NCBI RefSeq assembly: GCF_000196895.1
Contig: NC_014298.1
Location: forward strand, 62,001-126,000
Direction of reading: 5' to 3'
DNA from: Halalkalicoccus jeotgali B3
Lineage (GTDB): Archaea; Halobacteriota; Halobacteria; Halobacteriales; Halalkalicoccaceae
Length of the DNA stretch: 64,000 nucleotides
In this document: positions 23,542 to 62,039 of the stretch, piece after piece
Position numbering within the stretch: the first letter of the stretch is position 1
Layout of the letters: each line of letters opens with the position of its first letter
Notes under the pieces: model-generated
The model's database searches: none
Told to the model about the DNA's origin: nothing
What the model saw: the letters and a program-made list of their open reading frames with translations, nothing else
Program-made: the position numbers and the translations under genes

Positions 23542-23728
23542 CGCCTGCGAGCACCCAGAGACAACGGCCCTCCCTGAGACTCCTCACTCCTACGTGCACT
23601 CGTCTCGTGTAACGTCTGTGGACCACAACCTCTGATAGTGACACTCATACATTCATACGGAGTCACTGTCCTTATCTACGGGTCGGTCGCAACAACCGTA
23701 TTTGTACTGTCGCCGTGAGCAATCCCAT

Positions 23729-25027
23729 ATGGAGTTTCCTAACCGAAGTGCTATTGACCACCTCGTCGACCCACAGCCGTTGCCCGAGTTTGCACGTATC
23801 CGATACAAACCGACGAGTGAGGCACTGTCTGAGCCGGTCGGCAAAGCCCAAGCCGAACTCGACGCCCTCGGCGTGGATGAACTGAACGACGGTGCGACGG
23901 TTGCCGTAGGCGTCGGTAGTCGTGGTATCCACCGCATTGTCGACGTCGTACGCGCAATAGTAACCGAACTCGACGAGCGGGGTCTCACTGTCGTCATCGT
24001 CCCCGCAATGGGGAGTCACGGCGGCGCGACGCCCAAGGGCCAGCGCGAGGTGCTGGAATCGCTTGGTATCACCGAAGAGACGGTAGGCACGCCGATAGAC
24101 GCGCGGATGGACACGAAAGAACTAGCTACGGTGATAGTTGGCGACGCCGACGTACCAGTGTACTTCGCAACAGCTGCGCTCAACGCCGACGCCGTGCTCG
24201 TAGTCAACCGCGTGAAAGCGCACACGAATTTCAGCGGCCCAATCGAGAGCGGGCTCGCGAAGATGACCGTGGTCGGCCTTGGGAAGCAGCGTGGGGCGAA
24301 ATCGTTCCACTCAGCAGCCATCGCAGAAGGGTACGTTGAGACGTTGACTGCCGCGCTAGATATCGTTGCGTCGTCGGTCCCGTTGCTCGGTGGCGTTGCA
24401 CTCGTAGAGGATTTCGAAGAGAAACTCGCACACGTTGAAGGCGTACCCGCGGGGTCGTTTATCGACCGTGAGCCGGAACTGCTAGAACGCGCATACGACG
24501 AAATGCCGATGCTCCCCGTCGATGACGTCGACCTACTAGTGATCGACGAGATCGGCAAGGAGATATCCGGCGCAGGAATGGACACGAACGTCATCGGGCG
24601 CTACCGAGTGCTGAACGCACCCGATCCCGACAAACCGGATGTCGCTCTCATTTACGTCCGCGGGCTTACCGAAGCGACGAAAGGGAATGGTAACGGTATC
24701 GGGCTTGCGGATCTCACCCGACGAGCCGCAGTCAACCAAATCGACCTCCAGAAGACGTACGCAAATGCGCTCACAAGCGGGTCGCTCTCGAAGGCGAAGC
24801 TTCCTGTAGTCGCGCCCGACGACGAGTTCGCGCTCCGCACGGCACTGGCTGCACTCGGCAGCTACGACCCCGAAACGGTCCGTATCCTGTGGATTCAAAA
24901 CACAGAAGAACTCGGCGAACTGCGGGTCTCGACCGCCGTTATCGACGATCTGCCGGAGTCGGCGAGCGTAACGACACACGAGTCGATAGCGTTCAACGAC
25001 GGCACGGCACAGTTTACGGAAACGTAG
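23729..25027 (+). CDS. LarA-like (DUF2088, lactate racemase family) protein
   Basis: 432 residues from the ATG at 23729 (MEFPNRSAID). It contains the DUF2088-type N-terminal domain (VAVGVGSRGIHRIVDVVRAI, then VPAMGSHGGATPKGQREVL), the segment NRVKAHTNFSGPIESGLAKM and a C-terminal domain. LarA enzymes racemise 2-hydroxyacids using a nickel-pincer cofactor; this protein keeps the GSHGGAT and KAHT regions, but the subgroup is distant from characterised lactate racemases, and the LarB/C/E maturation genes are not nearby. The longer frame to 23702 starts in unlikely sequence. It could supply a hydroxyacid isomer to the 28.7-32.3 kb operon (inference). Confidence 0.8.
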   Translation: MEFPNRSAIDHLVDPQPLPEFARIRYKPTSEALSEPVGKAQAELDALGVDELNDGATVAVGVGSRGIHRIVDVVRAIVTELDERGLTVVIVPAMGSHGGATPKGQREVLESLGITEETVGTPIDARMDTKELATVIVGDADVPVYFATAALNADAVLVVNRVKAHTNFSGPIESGLAKMTVVGLGKQRGAKSFHSAAIAEGYVETLTAALDIVASSVPLLGGVALVEDFEEKLAHVEGVPAGSFIDREPELLERAYDEMPMLPVDDVDLLVIDEIGKEISGAGMDTNVIGRYRVLNAPDPDKPDVALIYVRGLTEATKGNGNGIGLADLTRRAAVNQIDLQKTYANALTSGSLSKAKLPVVAPDDEFALRTALAALGSYDPETVRILWIQNTEELGELRVSTAVIDDLPESASVTTHESIAFNDGTAQFTET

Positions 25028-26631: not shown

Positions 26632-27324
26632 CTACTCTAACTGGTCCGCAAGATCATTGAAATCTTCGACGACGATATCGGGATCCTGTCCAATGGATTC
26701 ATGGGGAGCCTTCTGTTCAGGTCGTGCAAGCCACCCAGCCATCATGCCTGCATGCTTTGCGCCCCAGACGTCACGCATACCGCCCCCGGAGACGTGCAGG
26801 ATGTTCTCGATCGGTGTTCCAACACGCGTAGCGGCGTGCTGATAGATCGCCGGATCGGGCTTGTAGACCCCGATCTCATCGGCACTGATCGTATCGGAAA
26901 CGAGATCCTCGAGTTCAGCAGCTTCGATCAGATGCTTAAGCATTGCCGGATTCCCGTTCGAAAGCACGTATACTTCGTAACCTGCGTTAACGACCCGCCC
27001 AATACCATCAGCCACATCATCAAAAACGGTAATCCGATCCTCGTAGACCTCTTTGCGAATGCGGTCGCGCACGTCACTAGGCACGTCATAGCCGGTCGCT
27101 TCGAGAGCATACCGTAGCCCCTGGCCGATCAGCTCCCAGAACGGACGATATGCATCGATATCGTTAGCGATCATCGAATACTGTATGTATTGGTTCCGCC
27201 AGAGTTGCGAGACACGCTCTCCGTCCTCGATCTCCGGGACATGTCCCTCTAGGACGGCAGCTTGTGAACTGACATCAACGAGGGTTGTGTACGAATCGAC
27301 CGTAACCGTCTCAGGTCTTTCCAT
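26632..27324 (-). CDS. HAD-superfamily hydrolase, haloacid dehalogenase type II-like
   Basis: 230 residues from the ATG at 27324 (MERPETVTVDSYTTLVDV); an upstream ATG at 27378 would add 18 unlike residues. The nucleophile is Asp in VTVDSYTTLVD, with Thr replacing the common Gly of DxYGT. Motif II is YVLSNGNP, motif III Lys is in GVYKPDPAIY, and motif IV is in HVSGGGMRDVWGAKHAGM. Type II dehalogenases hydrolyse 2-haloacids, but many relatives are phosphatases. It precedes a DeoR-type regulator on the same strand and diverges from a sugar-type operon, so a phosphosugar or hydroxyacid substrate is plausible. Gap to the regulator: 178 bp. Confidence 0.85.
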   Translation of the reverse strand: MERPETVTVDSYTTLVDVSSQAAVLEGHVPEIEDGERVSQLWRNQYIQYSMIANDIDAYRPFWELIGQGLRYALEATGYDVPSDVRDRIRKEVYEDRITVFDDVADGIGRVVNAGYEVYVLSNGNPAMLKHLIEAAELEDLVSDTISADEIGVYKPDPAIYQHAATRVGTPIENILHVSGGGMRDVWGAKHAGMMAGWLARPEQKAPHESIGQDPDIVVEDFNDLADQLE

Positions 27325-27502
27325 GCTATGATAGAGGCGGAAGACGCCTTCTAATATAAGTGTGCCTTTATCACTCACGATTCAAATACTGTATCCGACA
27401 AACGTCACATCGTCTCTGCAACGGACATGTGGGCGGTGTTTAGCTCTTCCTTGTTTTGTCCGCGCACGAGACGTACGCCGCCGAACCGACCGAACTGGTG
27501 GG

Positions 27503-28261
27503 CTATGAGTACGTATCTTCAATGATGTGCACTCCAGTGGACATGGCACCTTCGCGAACCGCTTTGGGAACTGTACTGTCAGTTATCAGTACGTCGATAG
27601 ACGAATAAGAACCGAACTGGAACGCGTGTCGTTTGTCGAACTTCGAGTGGTCTACCGTGAGAACGACGCGTCGAGCGTTGTCTATCATCGTACGCTTGAC
27701 CTGCGCTTGCTGGATATCTTGGGCGGTCATCCCCTCCTCGTCGATTCCGTCGGTCCCCAAGAAGAGCAGGTCGGCGTTCATCTGTTTGACGTGCTCGTCG
27801 GCCCACGGGCCGACACACGAGTGACCCTCTTTTTGGTACGTTCCGCCGGTCAAGTACACCTCATGATCGCGCTCGGCCAACTCATACGCGACGGATGGCA
27901 TGCGCGTCATCGGCGTTATCGGGAGCGACTTCGGGACTCTCTTAGCTAACTCAAGGAGTGTCGAACCACTGTCGAAGGCGACCACCTGATCTTCCCGTAT
28001 CTCTTCGACTGCCCGTTCAGCTATTGATCGTTTCTGGTCGACGTGGTACACTTTGCGTTTCTCGTACGGTTTCGCGTGGCTGATGACCGGTGTCGCTCCA
28101 CCGTGTGTCCGCTCGATAAGTTTCCGTTCTTCGAGGTCGCTGAGGTCTCGCCGAATTGTCGCACTGGAGACCCCGATCTTCTCGGCTAACTCGTCTACGG
28201 AGCACCCACCTCGGTCCTCGACCAGATCGGCGATCCGCTGTTTTCGTTGTTTCGGAAGCAT
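27503..28261 (-). CDS. DeoR/GlpR-family transcriptional repressor
   Basis: 252 residues. The N-terminal HTH (CSVDELAEKIGVSSATIRRD, then LSDLEERKLIERTHGGA) is the DeoR signature. The C-terminal sensor has the phosphosugar-binding elements VAFDSGSTLLELAKRV, LTGGTYQKEGHSCVG, LFLGTDGIDEEGMTAQD and VVLTVDHSKFDKRHAF. Such repressors respond to phosphorylated sugars, as GlpR does in haloarchaea. It diverges from the aldolase-kinase-dehydrogenase operon across 520 bp, so it is the obvious regulator of that operon and of the HAD gene. Confidence 0.93.
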   Translation of the reverse strand: MLPKQRKQRIADLVEDRGGCSVDELAEKIGVSSATIRRDLSDLEERKLIERTHGGATPVISHAKPYEKRKVYHVDQKRSIAERAVEEIREDQVVAFDSGSTLLELAKRVPKSLPITPMTRMPSVAYELAERDHEVYLTGGTYQKEGHSCVGPWADEHVKQMNADLLFLGTDGIDEEGMTAQDIQQAQVKRTMIDNARRVVLTVDHSKFDKRHAFQFGSYSSIDVLITDSTVPKAVREGAMSTGVHIIEDTYS

Positions 28262-28784
28262 AGGATAACTCTATTTTTAGGCTAAGATATATCTTGTCAC
28301 ACATCACCGATGTCGGGTCTCTCCGCAGGGTGCGATAAATTTGTGCGATTAAAAGAGAAATGATTATGAGAGCTACAAAAGTCTGCAGTGGCCCATTCGT
28401 TACAATGTTACGGCTGTAATCCTCTCTACTACTTGAACTTCCGTGGTACGGGTGTGTCAGAATGTCTCAAATTATTAGACTGCCTCTCTGTAATCGACTA
28501 TGACATTCTCAAATTTCTGCTGATCTATATGGGGAAAATAGTTAAATCGTGCGTAAATAATCCGTGATGGTTCGGATAGATACGATTTACATCGACTCAG
28601 GGCGATTGAGTACCACCCCAGAGCGAGTGACGATCCGGTAGTGTGGGAACTTCACACCTGGCTACCTCATTATCGCCCGCCCGAGTGACGTAAGCAGGTA
28701 GAACACCTTATCGAAGAACACCGGCAGCGACGACGGATCCGTGTGAGTAGTAACTCTCATTTAGTCGGTTCCTCTGTATCCGGT
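28262..28784. promoter_or_regulatory. Divergent promoter region of the carbohydrate module
   Basis: 520 bp without a gene. Near the regulator start there is a palindromic AAGATATATCTT (28284-28295) that looks like its TATA element. The middle contains A+T-rich patches and the word TCTCAAATT twice (about 28463-28473 and 28505-28514). The aldolase promoter should lie in 28500-28780. No exact operator palindrome was found. Confidence 0.5.
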
Positions 28785-29789
28785 ATGTCACACGACTCGA
28801 CTGTCACGCTTCGCGAGTGTTACGAAGACGCGAAAACGGGCCGTTACGGCTTCTTTGCCAGCAACGTCACCCATTTCGATATTCTCGTCGGTCTCCTACG
28901 CGGAAGTGCGAGTGTCGACGCCGACCTCGTCGTCCAACTGGGGATGGAAGAGGCAGCGTTCTTCGGCGATGATGATCCAGCGGTCGGTGTCGATGTCTTT
29001 GGTGGGTGTCTCGATGCGCTCGCAACGCGTCACGGTATCGAGGCTTACTGTAACCTCGACCACATTCACCTCCCCAACGACTTCGATTTCCTCGAGGACG
29101 CCGTCGCAACCAGCGTTCCCGACTCGGTCATGGTCGACGCCTCGGCAGAAGCATTCGAACGAAACGTCAAGTTGACCGCGAAAGCGGTCGACAGCGTGGA
29201 TGACGACGTCCTCGTCGAGGCAGAACTCGGACGCATCGCCGGTATCGAGGGGAATACCGAGACGCCCAGCGACGAGGCGTTCTATACAGACCCCGACGAT
29301 GCGGTCGAGTTCGTTGAGCGTACCGGCTGTGACCTCCTCGCCGTCTCCATCGGGACGCAACACGGCGTCGCCTCCGGGCGTGACCTCGATGTCCGTCCCG
29401 ACCTCGCTGCTGATATACACGACGCCCTCGTTGAGGCTGGTCACGACACTTTCCTCGTCGTCCACGGGGCGTCGGGCCTCTCTAACGAACGTATCGAGGA
29501 ACTCATCGACGCCGGTGTCTGTAAGTTCAACAAGAACACCCGATACCAGTACGAATTCGCGCGAACGGCCGCAGACTTCTATCACGATCATGCAGACGCG
29601 ATTCGACCGCCAGCCGATGTCGCTGACGACAGGGCGGGGTTCTTCAGGGAGAGCAATTGGCAACCGGACAAGACGCACTTTCATCCACACGCCGTTTCGG
29701 AGGCCGCCCAAGAACGAATCGCCGCCGTGATGAGTGACCTTTGTATGCTGACTGGGTGTGCAGGTGAGAGCGTTCACACCGACCGATGA
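28785..29789 (+). CDS. Class II (Zn) ketose-bisphosphate aldolase family protein
   Basis: 334 residues from the ATG at 28785 (MSHDSTVTLRECYEDAK); an in-frame GTG at 28743 would add 14. The metal and catalytic residues of the FbaA/KbaY/GatY family are present: Asp92-His93 (NLDHIHLP), Glu145/147 (VEAELGRIAG), His193 (GTQHG) and His227 (VVHGASGL). Aldol cleavage of a phosphorylated ketose to DHAP plus an aldehyde is expected. Sequence around the loops differs from true fructose-bisphosphate aldolase, so the substrate is probably another sugar phosphate. First gene of a three-gene operon; overlaps the kinase by ATGA. Confidence 0.87.
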   Translation: MSHDSTVTLRECYEDAKTGRYGFFASNVTHFDILVGLLRGSASVDADLVVQLGMEEAAFFGDDDPAVGVDVFGGCLDALATRHGIEAYCNLDHIHLPNDFDFLEDAVATSVPDSVMVDASAEAFERNVKLTAKAVDSVDDDVLVEAELGRIAGIEGNTETPSDEAFYTDPDDAVEFVERTGCDLLAVSIGTQHGVASGRDLDVRPDLAADIHDALVEAGHDTFLVVHGASGLSNERIEELIDAGVCKFNKNTRYQYEFARTAADFYHDHADAIRPPADVADDRAGFFRESNWQPDKTHFHPHAVSEAAQERIAAVMSDLCMLTGCAGESVHTDR

Positions 29790-31294
29790 GCGACGCCAAC
29801 CAGATCCTCATCGGCATCGACGCCGGCCTGACCAACGTTACGGTGACGGCGTTCGATGATGCGGGAACTGAACTCGCGAGCGCCTCACGAGCCACACCGA
29901 CAGTCAAGACCGTCTCTGGCCGAGACGAACAGGACCACGAGCGACTATGGGACATCGTCTGCGAGGCGACCGCTGCAGTTGTCGAGCGCCAGAGGGTCCT
30001 GTGCGACGATATCGCGAGTGTCGGCGTCGCCGGCCACGGTCACGGACTGTACGGTCTCGATGCTGATGGGACACCCGTCTGTGGTATCAAATCGACCGAC
30101 AGCCGCGCCATCGACATTCTCGGGGATACTCACCCCGACGTGTACGATTCGGTTGTTGAGCGGCTCGACTGGGAACCGTTCGGTGCGGATCCACTGAGCC
30201 TCCTCGTGTGGCTCCGCGACAACGACCCGATGACGTACAACCGTCTCGATACGGTGTTGTTCTCGAAGGACGTATTGACCTACCGACTTACCGGCGAACG
30301 CTCGACGGACCCCTCTGAGGCAAGCGTATTCTACGGGCCAGACGCCGAGTACGACGAACAAGTGTTCGAAGCGCTCGGACTCTCCGAGATGTTCGAAGCG
30401 CTCCCACCGGTCGTTCCGAGCACCGATCGGTGTGGACGCGTTACGGCGACTGCTGCGGACCGAACCGGCCTCCCTGAAGGCGTACCTGTTGCAACGGGAC
30501 TCCACGATGTTGCCGCATGTACGCTTGGCGCAGGTATCGTCACGGCCGGAGATGGGTTGATCATCCTCGGTACGTGGGGACAAAGCGTCGCAGTGCTCGA
30601 CGACCCCGACGACGGCGACTCGGGACTCCCTCGACGGTATCTGGATGGCTGGCTTCGATACAAGGGTATTCGCTCCGGTGCGGCTTGTGTCGAGTGGTTT
30701 GTCGAGAATTGGGGTGCGGAGTGGCGTCGCACAGCAGACGAACGGGGCGTCTCGCCGTACGTAGTCTACGAAGAAGCAGTTGACAGTATCCCTCCCAGTT
30801 CGGACGGTCTCCTCTTTCACCCATTCCTCAAAGGGTCGACCGACAATCCGAACAGTGCCGGTGGGTTCTACGGACTCCGTTTAGAACACACGAGCGCGCA
30901 TCTACTCCGCTCGATATACGAGGGCGTAACGGTCACGCAGGTACATGCGCTCGACTCGATAACGACAGCGACCGATGCGATTCGTTTGACTGGTGGTGGC
31001 GCACGGAGCGAAGCGTGGTCACAGATATTCGCAGACGTGGCTAGGCTTCCGGTTCGTGTTCCGAGCGAGCGAGAGACGGGGGCGCTCGGGGCGGCACTCT
31101 GTGGTAGCGTCGCTGCCGGGGTCTACCCGACTGCCGAAGCGGCCGTCGATCGTACGGTTGGAACTGCGGGTCGGTACGACCCGAATCCTGAAACCGAAAC
31201 ACAATACCGAATGCTTACCGATGCGTTCGAGCAAGCAACGGATGCGATGGAACGACCGTGGGAAACGCTCAAGTCCCTAGGCCAAAAACGGTAG
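29786..31294 (+). CDS. FGGY-family carbohydrate kinase
   Basis: 502 residues. The actin-like ATPase fold shows phosphate-1 (IGIDAGLTNVTVTAFD), the substrate region GVAGHGHGLYGLD and phosphate-2 (GLHDVAACTLGAGIV). The adenosine motif is LTGGGARSEAWSQIFADV, followed by GALGAALCGSVAAG. Likeness is to xylulokinase/L-xylulokinase/YoaC-type kinases rather than glycerol kinase. It phosphorylates a ketose or polyol, supplying the adjacent aldolase. The start overlaps the aldolase stop (ATGA); the dehydrogenase follows after 4 bp. Exact sugar unknown. Confidence 0.9.
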   Translation: MSDANQILIGIDAGLTNVTVTAFDDAGTELASASRATPTVKTVSGRDEQDHERLWDIVCEATAAVVERQRVLCDDIASVGVAGHGHGLYGLDADGTPVCGIKSTDSRAIDILGDTHPDVYDSVVERLDWEPFGADPLSLLVWLRDNDPMTYNRLDTVLFSKDVLTYRLTGERSTDPSEASVFYGPDAEYDEQVFEALGLSEMFEALPPVVPSTDRCGRVTATAADRTGLPEGVPVATGLHDVAACTLGAGIVTAGDGLIILGTWGQSVAVLDDPDDGDSGLPRRYLDGWLRYKGIRSGAACVEWFVENWGAEWRRTADERGVSPYVVYEEAVDSIPPSSDGLLFHPFLKGSTDNPNSAGGFYGLRLEHTSAHLLRSIYEGVTVTQVHALDSITTATDAIRLTGGGARSEAWSQIFADVARLPVRVPSERETGALGAALCGSVAAGVYPTAEAAVDRTVGTAGRYDPNPETETQYRMLTDAFEQATDAMERPWETLKSLGQKR

Positions 31295-31298
31295 CCCG

Positions 31299-32327
31299 AT
31301 GAAGGTACTCCTCTGTGGAGATCCACAGCAGCCGAGCGAATATATGTACGAAGCACTCGAGGCGCTCGAATCGCGTGGTGTCTCGTTTGAGCGGATGGAC
31401 TGGATGGATGACTCCTCGCCCACCGAATTTCGCAATGTTACAATGGACATGGAGTCACTCGGGCCTGGCAGCTATGATACCGATACGATCGCCGCGAACC
31501 TGGATGGCGTCGATGCACTCGTCGTTCACAAAGCACCGGTTTCGCGCGAGCTCATCACGGGTGCGGACCTCTCGCTCGTCGCTGCCGCCCGCGGTGGAAC
31601 GGAGAACATCGATGTCGAAGCCGCCGTCGACAACGGCGTCACCGTACTTCGCGCCCCCGGCCGGAACCGCGACGCTGTTGCGGACTACGCCGTGTCGATG
31701 CTGCTCTCGCGGCTTCGCGAGATTCCGTTCAATCACGCGGAACTCTCCGATGGCGAGTGGAACCAAGTGTTCGACCCCGACCAACTCCCACCGGACGTCA
31801 GGACGATGACGGTCGGTATCGTTGGCTTCGGACACATCGGGCGGGGTGTGGCACGTCGACTCGCCGGATTCGACCCGGAACTTCTCGTCTACGACCCGTT
31901 CGTCGACGACGAAGACATCCGCGATGTCGGTCCCGAACCGGCGGACCTCGACACGCTTCTCGCCGATTCCGACGCTGTTACTCTCCACGTCCGCCTCTCG
32001 GAGGACACCAAGAACATGATCGGTCATGAGGAGTTCGAACGGATGAACGACAACGGATATCTCGTAAACACCGCTCGTGGTGGACTCATCGATACCGACG
32101 CCCTCGTCGCTGCCGTTTCCGAGGGAGCTATCGCCGGCGCGGCGCTCGACGTGTTCGACGAAGAGCCAATTCCTGCCGGCCATCCGTTGTTCGACCTCGA
32201 CGGAGTTGTGTTGACGCCTCACGTCGCTGGATCGACTCGTGATGCGGTTCTTGGTGGTCCCCGCATCATCGCTTCGCAGCTCGAAACGTACCTCGACGGC
32301 GAGACACCCGCTCACGTCGTCGATTGA
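31299..32327 (+). CDS. D-isomer-specific 2-hydroxyacid dehydrogenase
   Basis: 342 residues. The NAD-binding motif is GFGHIG (176-181) and the catalytic triad is Arg260 (NTARGGLID), Glu289 (DVFDEEP) and His308 (LTPHVAG), all conserved. The N-terminal domain is longer than in SerA catalytic domains, similar to the YoaD-like group that in Bacillus is linked with an FGGY kinase. It interconverts a 2-hydroxyacid and a 2-ketoacid. Third gene of the aldolase-kinase operon. A link to oxidation of the aldehyde-derived hydroxyacid is inference. Confidence 0.92.
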   Translation: MKVLLCGDPQQPSEYMYEALEALESRGVSFERMDWMDDSSPTEFRNVTMDMESLGPGSYDTDTIAANLDGVDALVVHKAPVSRELITGADLSLVAAARGGTENIDVEAAVDNGVTVLRAPGRNRDAVADYAVSMLLSRLREIPFNHAELSDGEWNQVFDPDQLPPDVRTMTVGIVGFGHIGRGVARRLAGFDPELLVYDPFVDDEDIRDVGPEPADLDTLLADSDAVTLHVRLSEDTKNMIGHEEFERMNDNGYLVNTARGGLIDTDALVAAVSEGAIAGAALDVFDEEPIPAGHPLFDLDGVVLTPHVAGSTRDAVLGGPRIIASQLETYLDGETPAHVVD

Positions 32328-35757: not shown

Positions 35758-36138
35758 TCAGTCGTCACTGATCTCGGAGAGGCGGGCACGAATGTCCTCT
35801 ACATCGGCATCTGAAAGCGCTTCGAGCCCGAACTGTACAAGGAGGGGGTAGAAATGCCGATTTTTCTTGAACTCGTTTTGACCGGCTTTCCGAAGTTTGA
35901 GTTGCGATTCTAAATACGTGTCCTCCATAGCATCGAGAACGTCGTCCGGGATGTAGATCGTTCGACCGTTCCACTCGTCTTTGATGTTCGTCTTCGTTGC
36001 GCTCGTTTCATTCGTGCTCTGTGTTCCAGTCGGTGCATTCGTCTCTTGTGTTCCGGAGCCCTTATTCACGTCTCCATCGGGGGGGTCTTCTTCGTAGTTT
36101 CCTTCGATACCCGAAGCGTCTCCCCAGCCATCACTCAT
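35758..36138 (-). CDS. Small ParA partner protein (module 2), RHH-like
   Basis: 126 residues. The first 50 are Asn/Thr/Gly-rich and acidic, probably disordered. Then RTIYIPDDVLDAMEDTYLE and LKLRKAGQNEFKKNRHFYPLLVQFGLEAL resemble a ribbon-helix-helix strand followed by two helices, as in centromere-binding partners of type Ib ParA. The start overlaps the parA stop by ATGA, so it is co-translated. Role inferred from this pairing. Confidence 0.78.
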   Translation of the reverse strand: MSDGWGDASGIEGNYEEDPPDGDVNKGSGTQETNAPTGTQSTNETSATKTNIKDEWNGRTIYIPDDVLDAMEDTYLESQLKLRKAGQNEFKKNRHFYPLLVQFGLEALSDADVEDIRARLSEISDD

Positions 36139-36953
36139 GCTTTCACCTCTTCGGGAGCGGTCTTCGCGAACGTCTCGTCGAGCAGATCAGCGATGTCACC
36201 GAAGAGTTGACGCGCATCTTCGACGCGTCTGTTGTCCTTACTAAAGCCAAAGACGGAGACACCCTCACCGATCGATTGTGAGAGGTCCGTTCGTTTCGGT
36301 ATTTCGAAGACGGGGAGGGAATAAGCCGATTTGATCTCCCGAATCGTGTCTTTGTGTTCGGCGTTCTGTTCGACACGATTGCAGATAATAGCGAGGCGGT
36401 CGATGTTCCCATAGGCCGGTTCGAGTGATCCCAGCTGCTTTGCAAAGATCTGGAGACTGTTAGCGTTGAGTTTTTCGGGAATGACAGGGATAACCACGTT
36501 GCCGGTCGCGACGAGTGCGTTGTCGGTAAGAACGTTGAGCGACGGTGGCGTATCAACGAGGACGTAGTCGTAGTCCGTATCAAGCGTATCTAGCATCATT
36601 CCCAGTCGCTCTCGGCTCTTGGGAGCTTCGAGCAGTGTCTGGATGTTCTTGTTGTTCGCGAGTTTCTCGCTGGCAGGGAGGATATCGAACTCCTCGTGCT
36701 CAACGAGGATATCGTTCGCCGAATCCATCTGATCGAAGTCGAGCACGTCGAAGAGCGTGGTCCGATCGGTATCGTAGTACAGATCGCTGTAGCCAAGCGA
36801 GCACGTAAGCCCGCCATGATAATCGATATCGACGAGAAGAACGTCGTAGCCACGCGCTGAGAGTGCGCCGCCAGTATGAATAACGTCGGTCGTTTTTCCT
36901 GCGCCCCCTTTCTGGTTCGCTACCGTAATCCGTGCAGTTTCGTTTTCTGTCAT
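36135..36953 (-). CDS. parA: ParA-family partition ATPase (module 2)
   Basis: 272 residues. The deviant Walker A is KGGAGKTT (residues 15-22), LLVDIDYHGGLTCSLGY follows, and Walker B is YDYVLVDTPPSLN. It is intact and closer to canonical Soj/ParA than the copy at 4470. No N-terminal HTH. It forms an operon with the small partner at 35758 (ATGA overlap) and is preceded by a 270-bp block of TTCGTT repeats. Two independent partition modules in one window suggest a composite or fused replicon. Confidence 0.94.
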   Translation of the reverse strand: MTENETARITVANQKGGAGKTTDVIHTGGALSARGYDVLLVDIDYHGGLTCSLGYSDLYYDTDRTTLFDVLDFDQMDSANDILVEHEEFDILPASEKLANNKNIQTLLEAPKSRERLGMMLDTLDTDYDYVLVDTPPSLNVLTDNALVATGNVVIPVIPEKLNANSLQIFAKQLGSLEPAYGNIDRLAIICNRVEQNAEHKDTIREIKSAYSLPVFEIPKRTDLSQSIGEGVSVFGFSKDNRRVEDARQLFGDIADLLDETFAKTAPEEVKA

Positions 36954-37322
36954 ATCAGTTATTTAGTCAAGTGATTCATGTCATTCGTTACGTTCGTTAT
37001 CAGCAGTTCGTTCAGTGAAGGCGTTTCAATCACACCAAAGAACACCAATATGTTAAAGCCATCTTTTCGTTACGCTTGTTGAACGCAACGCTATTAGTTT
37101 GTTCATTGAGTTCGTTATCTTCGTTTATCGGCTACGCTGCTTCTTCTAATAACCCCAAGTTAGTTGCGATGGATACAGCCGCCCGATCGCGTTCGATGAG
37201 TCGCCATTACTTTCGTTTAATTCGTACAATCATTTTATTCGTTCATTCGTTTTAGAACGTCTGGAAACGGCGAGCGATACGAACCCGGACTGATATCGAT
37301 TTACGGTACGGCTAGTCTCGAA
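36954..37322. repeat. TTCGTT iterons upstream of parA (module 2)
   Basis: TTCGTT occurs nine times on the + strand (starts 36984, 36993, 37007, 37066, 37111, 37120, 37212, 37238, 37246), with several 8-9 bp spacings, in an A+T-rich non-coding stretch. Near-matches (TTCGTA, GTTCATT) fill the gaps. Position before parA and periodicity indicate a centromere-like parS array bound by the small partner protein, probably also the parA promoter. Confidence 0.65.
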
Positions 37323-39161
37323 TCAATCGTTCCCAACTCCCGGTCGTCTCTCCTCAGCGGGCGCAGCGTCGCTAACGTCGTACAGGGCGTTTGCGACCGT
37401 CCCGTATTCGGACGCGTGTGGACGTCCGGGAGTGTCGTCGTAGCCGTATTCGAAGAGCCGGTTGCGGTTGAGACTGAGCTTCGTGAACTCCGGTTGGAGC
37501 AGATCGAACAGCTCGAAGCGCTCTTCGAGTTCGGGGAACTGAGCCTGGTAGTCGAGGATCGCCGCCCGTGCGTGGGACCAGAACCGCTTTTCCGAGTAGT
37601 CTTCGTGGAGTTCGAGAACGTCCGCGACGTAGCGCAGCACGCAGACGAACAGCCCGGAGAATATGAACTGACAGAGCCCCTCGGGCGGCTCCTTTCGGAG
37701 CACGGCGTGCATCTCGTCGGGCAATGCCTCGAGTTCCGGGATGGGGTGATCGCTTACGTTCACGTCGTCGACGAAATCCTTGATCGCCAATCGCGTGGGA
37801 ACGCCGTCCTCGACGATCAGGATCGTGTTCTGGCCATGCGGGGAAAAGACCGTCCCGTAGCGGTACAGGAAGTGCAACAGCGGCGGAAGCACGGTGTCGA
37901 AGAACTCTTCGAGCCATTCGTCCGTACTGAGACCGGAGCGCTCGATAAGCCGGGAGACGTACGGATCGTCGTCGCCATCGTGCATGAGCGCGGAGAGCGT
38001 GACCGCGCGCTCGTTCCCGTCGAGGAACGTGTAGATCGACTCGCGCCAGACGACCCCGAGCAACTCGTGATACTGGTAGGGCGAGCCGTCGATCTCGGTG
38101 AAGTCGCCGTGATCGTAGTTGATCCCGGCGATCTCACCGGGCAGCACAAGCCCTTGCTCTTGAAGGAACTCATCGTTCTCGTAGATACCCTGAATGTACT
38201 CGGTCACCGTCGGTGCGAGCTCGGTTCGCTCGCCGGGCAGGCCCCGCCAGACCAGCGTGTTGAGGATCCGCATCGGCACCTTGACGTGGTGTTTCGTCTC
38301 GTCGTCGAGGTTGACGAACGTGCGGACCGACTGCTGGGGCAGGTACGCGTCGGAACCCTCGCCCAGCGGGACGATGTCGTCGGTAGCGATGTCGTCGGGG
38401 AACAGCGGGACGATACTGTTGTCCCACTGCCAGTCGTGCACCGGCAGGAGGTAGTAGGTGTCGGGATCGAGCCCTCGGTCGGCGAGGCGCTCCCGGAACC
38501 GACCGTAGGCATCGCCGAGTTCGTTGCGGACGAGCGAATCGTGGTCGACGTCCTCGGTGCCGACGAACGTCGCCTTCTCCCTGCGAACGGCGACCCAGGA
38601 GAGCCTCACGGGCTCTTTCAGTTCGGGTGCGTACTGACGGTAATCGTCGTACCCCCAGCCGAGCCGGCCCTTGTTGTAGGTGATCCACGGGTGGCCGTCC
38701 ATCTCGCCCTCGAGGCGGGCGTAGTCGAGGTCGAGCGGGTCGAACTCCTCGCGCTCGCGCCGTCGGGCCTCGACGTGGGCGTCGGCTAGCAGCGTGCGCT
38801 TGTACTCGCGGACGAGGTTCCCCTCGGTGAGCCCCTCGAGGTCGGTCGTCTCGCCGAGATCCCGCAGCAGCCGAAGCGGGTCGTCGAGGGCGGCCCACGT
38901 CCCGTTCCCCTCCCGTCGCTCGACGGTTCCCTCGTAAACGTGGAGGCTGTCCATCAGTCGCTCGGCTGCCTCGAAGCGGTACGCCGTGTCGCCAAGATCG
39001 AACCGGTAGGTGGCGCGGTCGTCGCCGGCTTTGACCTGTCGTGGCGTGAGGATTTTCTCATAGGTGAACTCCTCTAGCATCTTCGTCAGGAGGCGGCGCT
39101 CGACCGTCTCCCAAACCGCTGCGTCTAGTGCGTTCCGTCGGATCGTGTCGTTCGGGTTCAT
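37323..39161 (-). CDS. iucC: IucC-type NIS siderophore synthetase
   Basis: 612 residues from the ATG at 39161. Family landmarks are WITYNKGRLGWGYDDYRQYAPE, LLPVHDWQWDNSI, an SVRTF loop, VKVPMRILNTLVWRGLPG, LHFLYRYGTVFSPHGQNTIL and LAIKDFVDDVNV. NIS synthetases adenylate a carboxylate (usually a citrate derivative) and condense it with an amine. In rhizobactin/schizokinen systems this last-gene homologue (RhbF) adds the second N-acetyl-N-hydroxydiaminopropane. The longer open frame to 39416 overlaps iucD and is rejected. The ATG is one base after the iucD stop codon. It appears intact and is the last gene of the operon. Confidence 0.93.
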   Translation of the reverse strand: MNPNDTIRRNALDAAVWETVERRLLTKMLEEFTYEKILTPRQVKAGDDRATYRFDLGDTAYRFEAAERLMDSLHVYEGTVERREGNGTWAALDDPLRLLRDLGETTDLEGLTEGNLVREYKRTLLADAHVEARRREREEFDPLDLDYARLEGEMDGHPWITYNKGRLGWGYDDYRQYAPELKEPVRLSWVAVRREKATFVGTEDVDHDSLVRNELGDAYGRFRERLADRGLDPDTYYLLPVHDWQWDNSIVPLFPDDIATDDIVPLGEGSDAYLPQQSVRTFVNLDDETKHHVKVPMRILNTLVWRGLPGERTELAPTVTEYIQGIYENDEFLQEQGLVLPGEIAGINYDHGDFTEIDGSPYQYHELLGVVWRESIYTFLDGNERAVTLSALMHDGDDDPYVSRLIERSGLSTDEWLEEFFDTVLPPLLHFLYRYGTVFSPHGQNTILIVEDGVPTRLAIKDFVDDVNVSDHPIPELEALPDEMHAVLRKEPPEGLCQFIFSGLFVCVLRYVADVLELHEDYSEKRFWSHARAAILDYQAQFPELEERFELFDLLQPEFTKLSLNRNRLFEYGYDDTPGRPHASEYGTVANALYDVSDAAPAEERRPGVGND

Positions 39162-39162
39162 G

Positions 39163-40542
39163 TCAGTCGTCCTGCGTCGGCATCGGGGTCGTTTCGCTCC
39201 CGCAGCGGGAGGCGCCTGGCGCGCGCTCGGTGAACCGCTCGACCGAGAAGTCCTGGAAGACGGTGTCCGTGTCCTCGGGGTAGGCCTCGCGGCCGACCAG
39301 CCGGTTGACGAACCGTTCGTTGCGATAACAGCCCAGTCCGAGGTCCGGGACGCCCACGCCGTGGGTGTGCAACTCGGCGTTCTGGAGGAAGACGTCGCCC
39401 GTGGCGTCGATCTCAAGGCGGTGATCCTCGGTCACCCCGAACCGCCCGCGATCGTCCCACACGACGTGATCCGCGAGGGGATCGAGGAAGTCGGGGGTCG
39501 GCCGCTCGTATCCCGTTCCGAGGATCACGACCTCGCTCTCGTGGACGAACGACTCCGCAGCCTGCCATTGGTGACAGTCGAGTGCGTAGGCGTCGCCAAC
39601 GGGCTCGATGTCCCGTACCTCGGTCATCGCAAAGAGCCCGACATCGGGGTCGCGGTCGCCGATCGAGCGCCGGTAGAGCAGGTCGTAGATCTCGGCGCTC
39701 GTTCCCGGGTCGACGCCCTTGTACAGCAGGTCCTGATTCGGAATCAAGTCGTCTTTGACCTCCTGGGGGAGGTCGTAGACGTACCGTTCGTACTCCGGGG
39801 AGAAGTGCTGGAGTCCGAGCTTCGAGTACTCCATCGGGAAGAAGCCCGCAGAGCGAGTCAACCAGTCGAGTCGGTACTCGCCCTCCGGCTGGCGCTCGAG
39901 CAGGTCCTGGAACACCTCGGCGGCGCTCTGCCCGGAGCCGACGATAGTGACCGAGTCGGCCGCGAGCGCGCGCTCGCGATCGTGTCGGTAGCGAGCGGTG
40001 TGGAACACCCCCTCGTCCGGCCCGCACTCGAGGTGGTCGGGGACCTGCGGTCGGGAGCCGATCCCCAGCGCGAGGTGCTTTCCGCGGTACTCGAAGCGCT
40101 CGCCGGTTTCGGGCTGCTCGGCGACGACGATGTACTGCTCGCAGTCGTCGTCCCACCGGACCGCCGTGACCTCGCGGCTGAACCGACAGCTCCCGAGGCG
40201 TTCGGCGACCCAGCGGAGGTAGTCGTCGTACTCCCGGCGGGGGATCTGGAACCGCTCGTAGAAGTAGAACTCGTAGATCCGCCCGGTCTCCCGCAGGTAG
40301 TTGAGATAGCTGTGGGGGTTGGCCGGATCCGCAAGCGTCACCAGATCCGCGAGGAAGGGGACCTCCAGGGTCGCGCCCTCGAGAAGCATTCCCTCGTGCC
40401 AGTGGAACTCGGCGTCGCGTTCGAGGAAGGCAGCGTCGACGTCCTCCCCGAGGCCATCGAGCAGGGCCGCGAGACCGAGGTTGAACGGACCGAGGCCGAC
40501 GCCGAGGACGTCGTGGACGCGGTCGTCGTCGGCCTCAGACAT
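39163..40542 (-). CDS. iucD: Siderophore amine N-monooxygenase (IucD/RhbE-like)
   Basis: 459 residues from the ATG at 40542 (MSEADDDRVHD). Flavin N-hydroxylase with FAD motif GVGLGPFNLGL (14-24), NADPH motif GSGQSAAE (202-209) and the C-terminal ATGYE-type motif ILGTGYERPTP. It N-hydroxylates a primary amine; with the DABA aminotransferase and decarboxylase genes upstream the substrate is expected to be 1,3-diaminopropane or its acetyl form. The start lies inside the 3' end of iucB (8-bp overlap). Intact. Confidence 0.94.
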   Translation of the reverse strand: MSEADDDRVHDVLGVGLGPFNLGLAALLDGLGEDVDAAFLERDAEFHWHEGMLLEGATLEVPFLADLVTLADPANPHSYLNYLRETGRIYEFYFYERFQIPRREYDDYLRWVAERLGSCRFSREVTAVRWDDDCEQYIVVAEQPETGERFEYRGKHLALGIGSRPQVPDHLECGPDEGVFHTARYRHDRERALAADSVTIVGSGQSAAEVFQDLLERQPEGEYRLDWLTRSAGFFPMEYSKLGLQHFSPEYERYVYDLPQEVKDDLIPNQDLLYKGVDPGTSAEIYDLLYRRSIGDRDPDVGLFAMTEVRDIEPVGDAYALDCHQWQAAESFVHESEVVILGTGYERPTPDFLDPLADHVVWDDRGRFGVTEDHRLEIDATGDVFLQNAELHTHGVGVPDLGLGCYRNERFVNRLVGREAYPEDTDTVFQDFSVERFTERAPGASRCGSETTPMPTQDD

Positions 40543-61382: not shown

Positions 61383-62039
61383 ATGGAATTCAGTGGGACG
61401 TTCGAACTCGAGGACACGACCGTCGACGAAGTATGGCTCGCCCTTTCGGATCCGGTGTTGATCGAGCAGTCGCTCCCCGGCTGTCAGTTCCTCGTCGAGG
61501 TCGAGGACACCGACGTCGACTTCGACGAGTTACGCGAAGCGACCGCCGACCGGGAGGTCGAACCGACCGGTGATCCGGAGGTGATCGCCCAACGGGCCTT
61601 CGAAGAGGGCAATCACTACGCAGCATTGATGCAGATAAGTGTCGGCCCGGTGAACCCGACCTTCGAGACGGTCGTCACCATCGAAAACCGCGAGTATCCC
61701 GAGATGTCGGCCGTCGGCGAGGGGTCTTCCAGTAACAGCTCCTTCGAGATGGCGTCCGGAATGGTCCTCTCGGAGACGGACAACGGCGTCGGCGTCGAGT
61801 GGGAGACGGAAGCCGACGTGTTCGGGAAGGTCGCCCAGATGGGCCAGCGCGTCGTCAATCCCGTTGCCAATCGGGTCGTCAAACGCTTTTTCTCCTCGGT
61901 CGAGGACGAGCTCCACGACCGACAGATCGCCGACGATGAGGGCGAGATACCGGCGGACGAACCGGACACGGACGAGAGCGATCGGGGACTCGTCGACAGG
62001 GTTCTCGGCCGTTCGGACAGCGACTCCAGCAGTTCATAA
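61383..62039 (+). CDS. coxG: CoxG-like SRPBCC protein
   Basis: 218 residues. MEFSGTFELEDTTVDEVWLALSDPVLIEQSLPGCQFL is the CoxG (CO dehydrogenase subunit G) START/SRPBCC N-terminus; NPTFETVVTIENREYPEMSA, NSSFEMASGMVLSE and VEWETEADVFGKVAQMGQRVVNP continue it. The acidic tail after about 175 is haloarchaeal. CoxG recruits or matures the CO dehydrogenase complex at the membrane. First gene of the cox cluster; coxL begins 4 bp downstream. Confidence 0.92.
   Translation: MEFSGTFELEDTTVDEVWLALSDPVLIEQSLPGCQFLVEVEDTDVDFDELREATADREVEPTGDPEVIAQRAFEEGNHYAALMQISVGPVNPTFETVVTIENREYPEMSAVGEGSSSNSSFEMASGMVLSETDNGVGVEWETEADVFGKVAQMGQRVVNPVANRVVKRFFSSVEDELHDRQIADDEGEIPADEPDTDESDRGLVDRVLGRSDSDSSSS

Follow-up and report, generated by a model that had tools for sequence, protein, structure and literature searches.

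A haloarchaeal aldolase–kinase–dehydrogenase operon with a divergent GlpR paralogue: a candidate route for keto sugar catabolism

Sugar degradation in haloarchaea is known mainly as a matter of oxidative routes. Phosphorylation followed by cleavage to dihydroxyacetone phosphate (DHAP) is familiar from the L-fucose and L-rhamnose pathways (FucK/FucA, RhaB/RhaD), in which an FGGY kinase precedes a DHAP aldolase, and from the Escherichia coli YdjHI pair, and within the haloarchaea the non-carboxylating pentose bisphosphate pathway splits a ketose-1-phosphate into DHAP and an aldehyde (PMC9700705). Here we describe an operon of Halalkalicoccus jeotgali B3 that encodes a class II aldolase, an FGGY kinase and a D-2-hydroxyacid dehydrogenase (the triad), with a divergent GlpR paralogue. 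It lies in a 64-kb window (positions 62,001 to 126,000 of NC_014298.1), part of a 406-kb contig in a 3.70-Mb genome of seven contigs. Judged from sequence, we put the chance at about one in two that the operon serves GlpR-paralogue-controlled catabolism of a keto sugar, with a keto sugar acid as the likeliest substrate.

Gene layout and conservation of the triad

The first-pass annotation had listed five open reading frames here, for a haloacid dehalogenase (HAD) family protein, a DeoR-type repressor, an aldolase, a kinase and a dehydrogenase, and all five are present on the strands and at the positions it gave. It had also described the operon's genes as overlapping, which holds for aldolase and kinase (4 bp, ATGA) and fails for kinase and dehydrogenase, which are separated by 4 nt. 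The operon and its regulatory region are as follows (evidence in brackets).

28785–29789, + strand: zinc aldolase, class II, F_bP_aldolase family, non-glycolytic subfamily, predicted to be a DHAP-releasing enzyme of the ketose-1-phosphate type (profiles, tree, alignment)
29786–31294, + strand: FGGY carbohydrate kinase of a LyxK-like clade, with Asp241 conserved in every aligned sequence (profiles, tree)
31299–32327, + strand: NAD-type D-2-hydroxyacid dehydrogenase, nearest phosphoglycerate dehydrogenase and glyoxylate reductase (profiles, alignment)
27503–28261, − strand: paralogue of the GlpR/DeoR repressor family, transcribed away from the operon and probably regulating it (profile, context)
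28262–28784, no strand assigned: intergenic region between the divergent units, with a leaderless-type promoter marked by a TCATTTA-like box some 27 nt ahead of the aldolase start codon

The aldolase reading frame was called from a GTG at 28743. Since orthologues start at the ATG at 28785, and several relatives likewise carry a TCATTTA-like box, typical of leaderless haloarchaeal promoters, some 27 nt ahead of that codon, 28785 is most likely the true start.

Among 391 genomes of the class, 25 from at least six families were found to encode a kinase orthologue (at least 46% identity), and the aldolase–kinase–dehydrogenase order is intact in 24 of them. A second genome collection added 8 further triad-bearing species. 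In all, 33 haloarchaeal genomes were found, 32 of which hold an intact locus with the same gene order and strand, usually with the 4-bp aldolase/kinase overlap. This clustering is far beyond chance; the operon proposed by the first-pass annotation stays together in distant genomes, and the scattering of orthologues that would have spoken against it was not seen. The remaining locus (L053, genome G270) is truncated, having lost the aldolase and the kinase N-terminus next to a gene that occurs twice in the locus and is probably a mobile element. In both collections the triad carriers are all haloarchaea. Of the kinase relatives in the genome collection, the 80 best include none from a bacterial triad, and Rubrobacteraceae and one other actinobacterium have a dehydrogenase–kinase pair only. 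The triad is present in just 2 of the 6 genomes of the window's genus and several copies are plasmid-borne, a patchy distribution from which it follows that the triad probably moves.

An aldolase subfamily that lacks the distal-phosphate arginine

The aldolase (PF01116) scores 534 bits against NF041368, the haloarchaeal class II fructose-bisphosphate aldolase (FBA) model with a cut-off of 500, which accepts triad aldolases and FBAs from other contexts alike. In the tree, the 32 triad aldolases split from 20 other-context haloarchaeal FBAs on a branch of 0.66 with support of 100/100. These sequences were aligned with E. coli FbaA, GatY, KbaY and YdjI (residues below follow E. coli FbaA numbering). 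The zinc ligands H110, H226 and H264, as well as the catalytic D109 and E182, are kept in 32/32 triad aldolases, and the same is true of G227, S267, N286 and T289 on the DHAP side. The residue set of a class II zinc DHAP aldolase in the broad sense is complete, and DHAP-dependent activity is predicted.

The distal side of the active site is altered. All 20 FBAs from other contexts have Arg331, in the DPR motif, as do GatY and KbaY. It has been lost from 29/32 triad aldolases, where it is usually replaced within FHPH; the window aldolase reads FHPHA where all 20 other FBAs read FDPR. The window enzyme thus lacks the arginine for the distal (C6) phosphate expected of a glycolytic class II FBA, as does YdjI, which has no Arg331 equivalent. 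Asp288 is replaced by Asn in 32/32 triad aldolases and Ser61 is variable. Retention of the DHAP half together with loss of the distal-phosphate arginine fits an enzyme that would release DHAP and an unphosphorylated aldehyde. The first-pass annotation had predicted DHAP and an aldehyde from a kinase followed by an aldolase, and the active-site comparison strengthens that prediction. The aldolase sequence also argues against the database label of an ordinary glycolytic aldolase.

By sequence, no solved structure is closer to the aldolase than YdjI (identity about 25%). An AlphaFold model of the aldolase (mean pLDDT 81) confirms the fold, and a fold search with it places YdjI first by a small margin, although Foldseek E-values do not discriminate class II subfamilies.

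A LyxK-like kinase, a D-2-hydroxyacid dehydrogenase and a GlpR paralogue

The kinase (PF00370 and PF02782) reaches no equivalog cut-off. Compared by BLAST with eight FGGY kinases of E. coli, it comes nearest to LyxK (216 bits, 32% identity), and in the tree the triad kinases cluster with LyxK and its bacterial relatives at 100/98, not with XylB, LsrK, FucK, RhaB, AraB or GlpK. An identity of 32% does not imply that the substrate is that of LyxK, which is annotated as an L-xylulose kinase. LyxK phosphorylates the CH2OH end opposite the carboxylate; were the triad kinase to act likewise on a penultimate-keto acid, the phosphate would come to lie beside the ketone, as the aldolase needs.

The dehydrogenase (PF02826 and PF00389) is the most conserved of the three proteins. 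It keeps the catalytic Arg, Glu and His of the family and the Asp typical of NAD enzymes, as read by eye from the alignment. Its best matches, phosphoglycerate dehydrogenase and glyoxylate reductase, both fall under their curated cut-offs, and a solved probable 2-ketogluconate reductase (9m0t) is among its relatives.

The divergent repressor scores 342 bits against NF041397, the haloarchaeal GlpR model (cut-off 300). It is 62–72% identical to other triad-linked copies and 43% identical to the genome's own canonical GlpR, which is chromosomal and divergent from PfkB and a fructose phosphotransferase system (PTS). The window paralogue is linked to the triad, not to pfkB or PTS genes, and paralogues also accompany the triads of Natrinema versiforme, Halogeometricum pallidum and locus L046. 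It is the probable regulator of the operon. A GlpR-type motif, dyads and common words were tried in five divergent intergenic regions, and none proved to be shared among them.

A parallel module with a non-homologous aldolase

In more than 12 haloarchaeal loci, kinases 34–39% identical to the triad kinase stand beside a FucA-type aldolase (L228, L230, L232, L234–L238, L066, L073 and others). A related dehydrogenase is usually nearby, and genes for an IclR regulator and a sugar-acid dehydratase are often present too. This aldolase is not homologous to that of the triad and scores 260 bits against the L-fuculose-phosphate aldolase model, whose cut-off is 264. That a kinase and a D-2-hydroxyacid dehydrogenase are again found with a DHAP-type aldolase, although the aldolase itself has been exchanged, supports the view that the three predicted functions form one pathway.

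Proposed pathway and alternatives

Gene identities, clustering, subfamily separation, active-site residues and transporter and neighbour context come from sequence comparison; from these we infer enzyme activities, regiochemistry, the identity of the aldehyde, the direction of the dehydrogenase and repression by the GlpR paralogue. In the scheme we consider, the LyxK-like kinase would phosphorylate a terminal CH2OH adjoining a ketone, and the zinc aldolase would split the product into DHAP, which would enter central metabolism, and an unphosphorylated aldehyde. The latter would be tartronate semialdehyde from a 5-keto-hexonate or glyoxylate from a 4-keto-pentonate. The dehydrogenase might then reduce the small acid, which would be glyoxylate or else hydroxypyruvate, of which tartronate semialdehyde is a tautomer. 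Alternatively it might act upstream, converting the substrate between its 2-keto and 2-hydroxy forms. In its most specific form the proposal is tentative: an undescribed haloarchaeal pathway in which a penultimate-keto sugar acid, such as a 5-keto-hexonate derived from uronates or gluconate, would be phosphorylated and 6-phospho-5-keto-hexonate then split into DHAP and tartronate semialdehyde. Such a pathway would exist in two convergent versions with non-homologous aldolases.

The neighbourhoods of other triads bear on the acidity of the substrate. In L060 the genes of a carboxylate transporter (TctC, TctB and TctA) immediately precede the triad and share its strand, and in L043 the GlpR paralogue has a GntP-type permease as its neighbour. 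Elsewhere the triad sits in islands with genes for a DUF1537 kinase, PdxA, UxaA-like, FAH, mannonate-dehydratase-like and galactonate-dehydratase-like proteins. In L048, L049 and L057 the triad has a tartronate-semialdehyde-reductase-like gene next to it, and such genes are found in 11/25 triad genomes versus 48/366 others (Fisher p = 3e-4, uncorrected for kinship). The window's genome also encodes a glycerate-kinase-family protein.

Several points weigh against a sugar-acid route of this kind. The DPR arginine is retained in three triad aldolases (L056, L061, L110), and the reading of the site leans on the roles in FbaA of Arg331, which we take to be distal-phosphate binding, and of Ser61 and Asp288; a paper on Arg331 was not found in the open-access literature searched. 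LyxK makes 5- or 6-phosphates, so that phosphorylation beside the ketone fits only where the ketone is penultimate. The island neighbours may belong to other pathways, and several triad loci carry general carbohydrate ABC transporters that are not acid-specific. The tartronate-semialdehyde-reductase-like genes fall just under the curated cut-off (333 versus 341 bits) and are triad-adjacent in two lineages only.

An alternative substrate is a neutral ketose. A ketose-1-phosphate made by the kinase, of L-xylulose or D-ribulose for example, would be cleaved to DHAP and glycolaldehyde or a similar aldehyde in the style of fucose and rhamnose degradation, with the dehydrogenase handling glyoxylate/glycolate downstream. 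The active-site result is equally compatible with such a route, the annotation of LyxK and the ABC transporters beside several triads would suit it, and the aldolase of the parallel module comes close to the L-fuculose-phosphate aldolase model. The TctCBA and GntP-type transporters and the acid-sugar enzymes beside the triad tell against it, and none of the genes near the triad was recognised as a sugar isomerase, although no search was aimed at isomerases; we regard a neutral ketose as possible but doubtful. An order of steps that keeps an acid substrate and puts the dehydrogenase first is unlikely. The enzyme would reduce a 2,5-diketo-aldonate to a 5-keto-aldonate before kinase and aldolase yield DHAP and tartronate semialdehyde. 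The required 2-ketoaldonate reductase activity is known for members of the family, 9m0t is among the relatives of the triad dehydrogenase, and L054, L098, L100 and L102 have aldo-keto reductase (AKR) genes close to the triad, that of L054 being best matched by DkgB. AKR genes are common, however, and are not present at every triad, and phosphoglycerate dehydrogenase and glyoxylate reductase score higher.

It is quite improbable that the operon is simply an accessory fructose-type cluster under GlpR, in which the kinase would make a hexose phosphate for a plain fructose- or tagatose-bisphosphate aldolase. Such a reading has on its side that aldolase and regulator pass the NCBI haloarchaeal equivalog cut-offs and that the aldolase is the sole class II FBA-family gene in the genome. 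Yet the genome also encodes two strong DeoC/LacD-family matches, candidates for a class I aldolase, and at least eight other genomes carry both aldolase types. No phosphofructokinase was recognised beside the triad, the genome's own fructose cluster is chromosomal, and the separate clade and lost arginine of the triad aldolase are hard to accommodate.

Neighbouring genes outside the module

Two further genes near the operon had been drawn into the first-pass interpretation.

26632–27378, − strand: HAD-family protein of the haloacid dehalogenase type II, 3′ of the regulator, probably unrelated to the module (profile, context)
23702–25027, + strand: LarA-like nickel-pincer isomerase of group 22, not a conserved member of the module (profile, tree, context)

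The HAD gene had been counted as part of the module, and neither it nor the LarA gene stands near the triad in the closest relatives (plasmids of Halalkalicoccus and Halarchaeum), where glpR diverges from aldolase–kinase–dehydrogenase; nor does the HAD gene in the other genomes examined. It scores 136 bits against TIGR01428 (haloacid dehalogenase type II, cut-off 125) and 35 bits against the ribulose-bisphosphate phosphatase model (cut-off 330), and its VDSYTTL motif, read by eye, lacks the second Asp of HAD phosphatases. Being haloacid-dehalogenase-like and missing from relatives, it was rejected as a pathway phosphatase.

The suggestion that LarA could interconvert hydroxyacid stereoisomers in this pathway likewise finds no support. 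The window protein belongs to a divergent group 22 subclade with L190, L209 and L203 (54–72% identical), which occur in unrelated contexts, and no member of the subclade was found beside the relatives' triads. A looser link between LarA and sugar acids may remain, because triad-linked LarA genes in several genomes come from other subclades; it is possible that LarA-type epimerases take part in related sugar-acid pathways. LarA genes are present in 23/25 triad genomes versus 156/366 others (Fisher 8e-7), a co-occurrence confounded by metabolic richness, and the window's genome encodes LarC. Elsewhere, group 22 genes adjoin DUF1537 kinase and PdxA-like genes in L204, L206 and L211, which suggests that the proteins there are C2-epimerases of four-carbon sugar acids. 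In L050 (6346–7383), L052 (12217–13329) and L210 a group 22 gene has a ketol-acid reductoisomerase-like gene for a neighbour, and nothing else of branched-chain biosynthesis was recognised in the vicinity. The LarA gene of L209 adjoins a 1016-aa gene resembling an FAD-linked oxidase.

Downstream of the operon, at 36135–39416, the window holds a ParA-like gene and a large gene resembling IucA/IucC-type siderophore synthetases (by eye). In L058 (11749–15059), L059 and L061 the triad is separated from a sugar ABC transporter by two divergent genes that, again by eye, resemble thermosome/chaperonin paralogues.

Comparison with known systems

A description of this pathway or gene combination was not found in the open-access literature searched. 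Plasmid records (L245–L247) name triad paralogues fba, with a glycolytic process, and glpR, because NF041368 and NF041397 score non-fructose paralogues above cut-off. Glycolytic annotation of a distinct aldolase subfamily misleads metabolic models, and the change from DPR to HPH offers a clear, testable residue difference. If true, a conserved kinase and DHAP-aldolase route for sugar acids would be a new entry into haloarchaeal central metabolism.

The E. coli ydjFGHIJKL cluster, like the triad operon, combines dehydrogenases with a putative DNA-binding regulator, a kinase and a class II F_bP aldolase that lacks the arginine for the distal phosphate, and the RefSeq record of YdjI gives as substrate L-glycero-L-galacto-octuluronate-1-phosphate, a keto acid. 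YdjH is a PfkB-family sugar kinase, whereas the triad kinase is of the FGGY family; the ydj dehydrogenases are an AKR and a zinc alcohol dehydrogenase instead of a D-2-hydroxyacid dehydrogenase, and the aldolases are only about 25% identical. The yia operon, home of LyxK, shares the kinase clade and is annotated as taking up 2,3-diketo-L-gulonate and decarboxylating 3-keto-L-gulonate-6-phosphate, again keto sugar acids, but proceeds by decarboxylation (SgbH) and epimerisation where aldol cleavage is predicted for the triad. The haloarchaeal fructose cluster (GlpR, PfkB, PTS, class II FBA) has a paralogous regulator and aldolase and differs in kinase family, aldolase clade, active site and locus. 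The pentose bisphosphate pathway shares the ending in DHAP and an aldehyde via a ketose-1-phosphate, but its FucA-type ribulose-1-phosphate aldolase, of another family, and its ribulose-bisphosphate phosphatase are not in the triad locus. Compared with fucose and rhamnose degradation, the triad has a non-homologous aldolase, no recognised isomerase and an additional D-2-hydroxyacid dehydrogenase, while in the parallel haloarchaeal module a FucA-type aldolase stands in for the FBA type. The kinase-then-DHAP aldolase chemistry is known; the combination of the three genes and the lineage in which it occurs are, on the literature searched, new.
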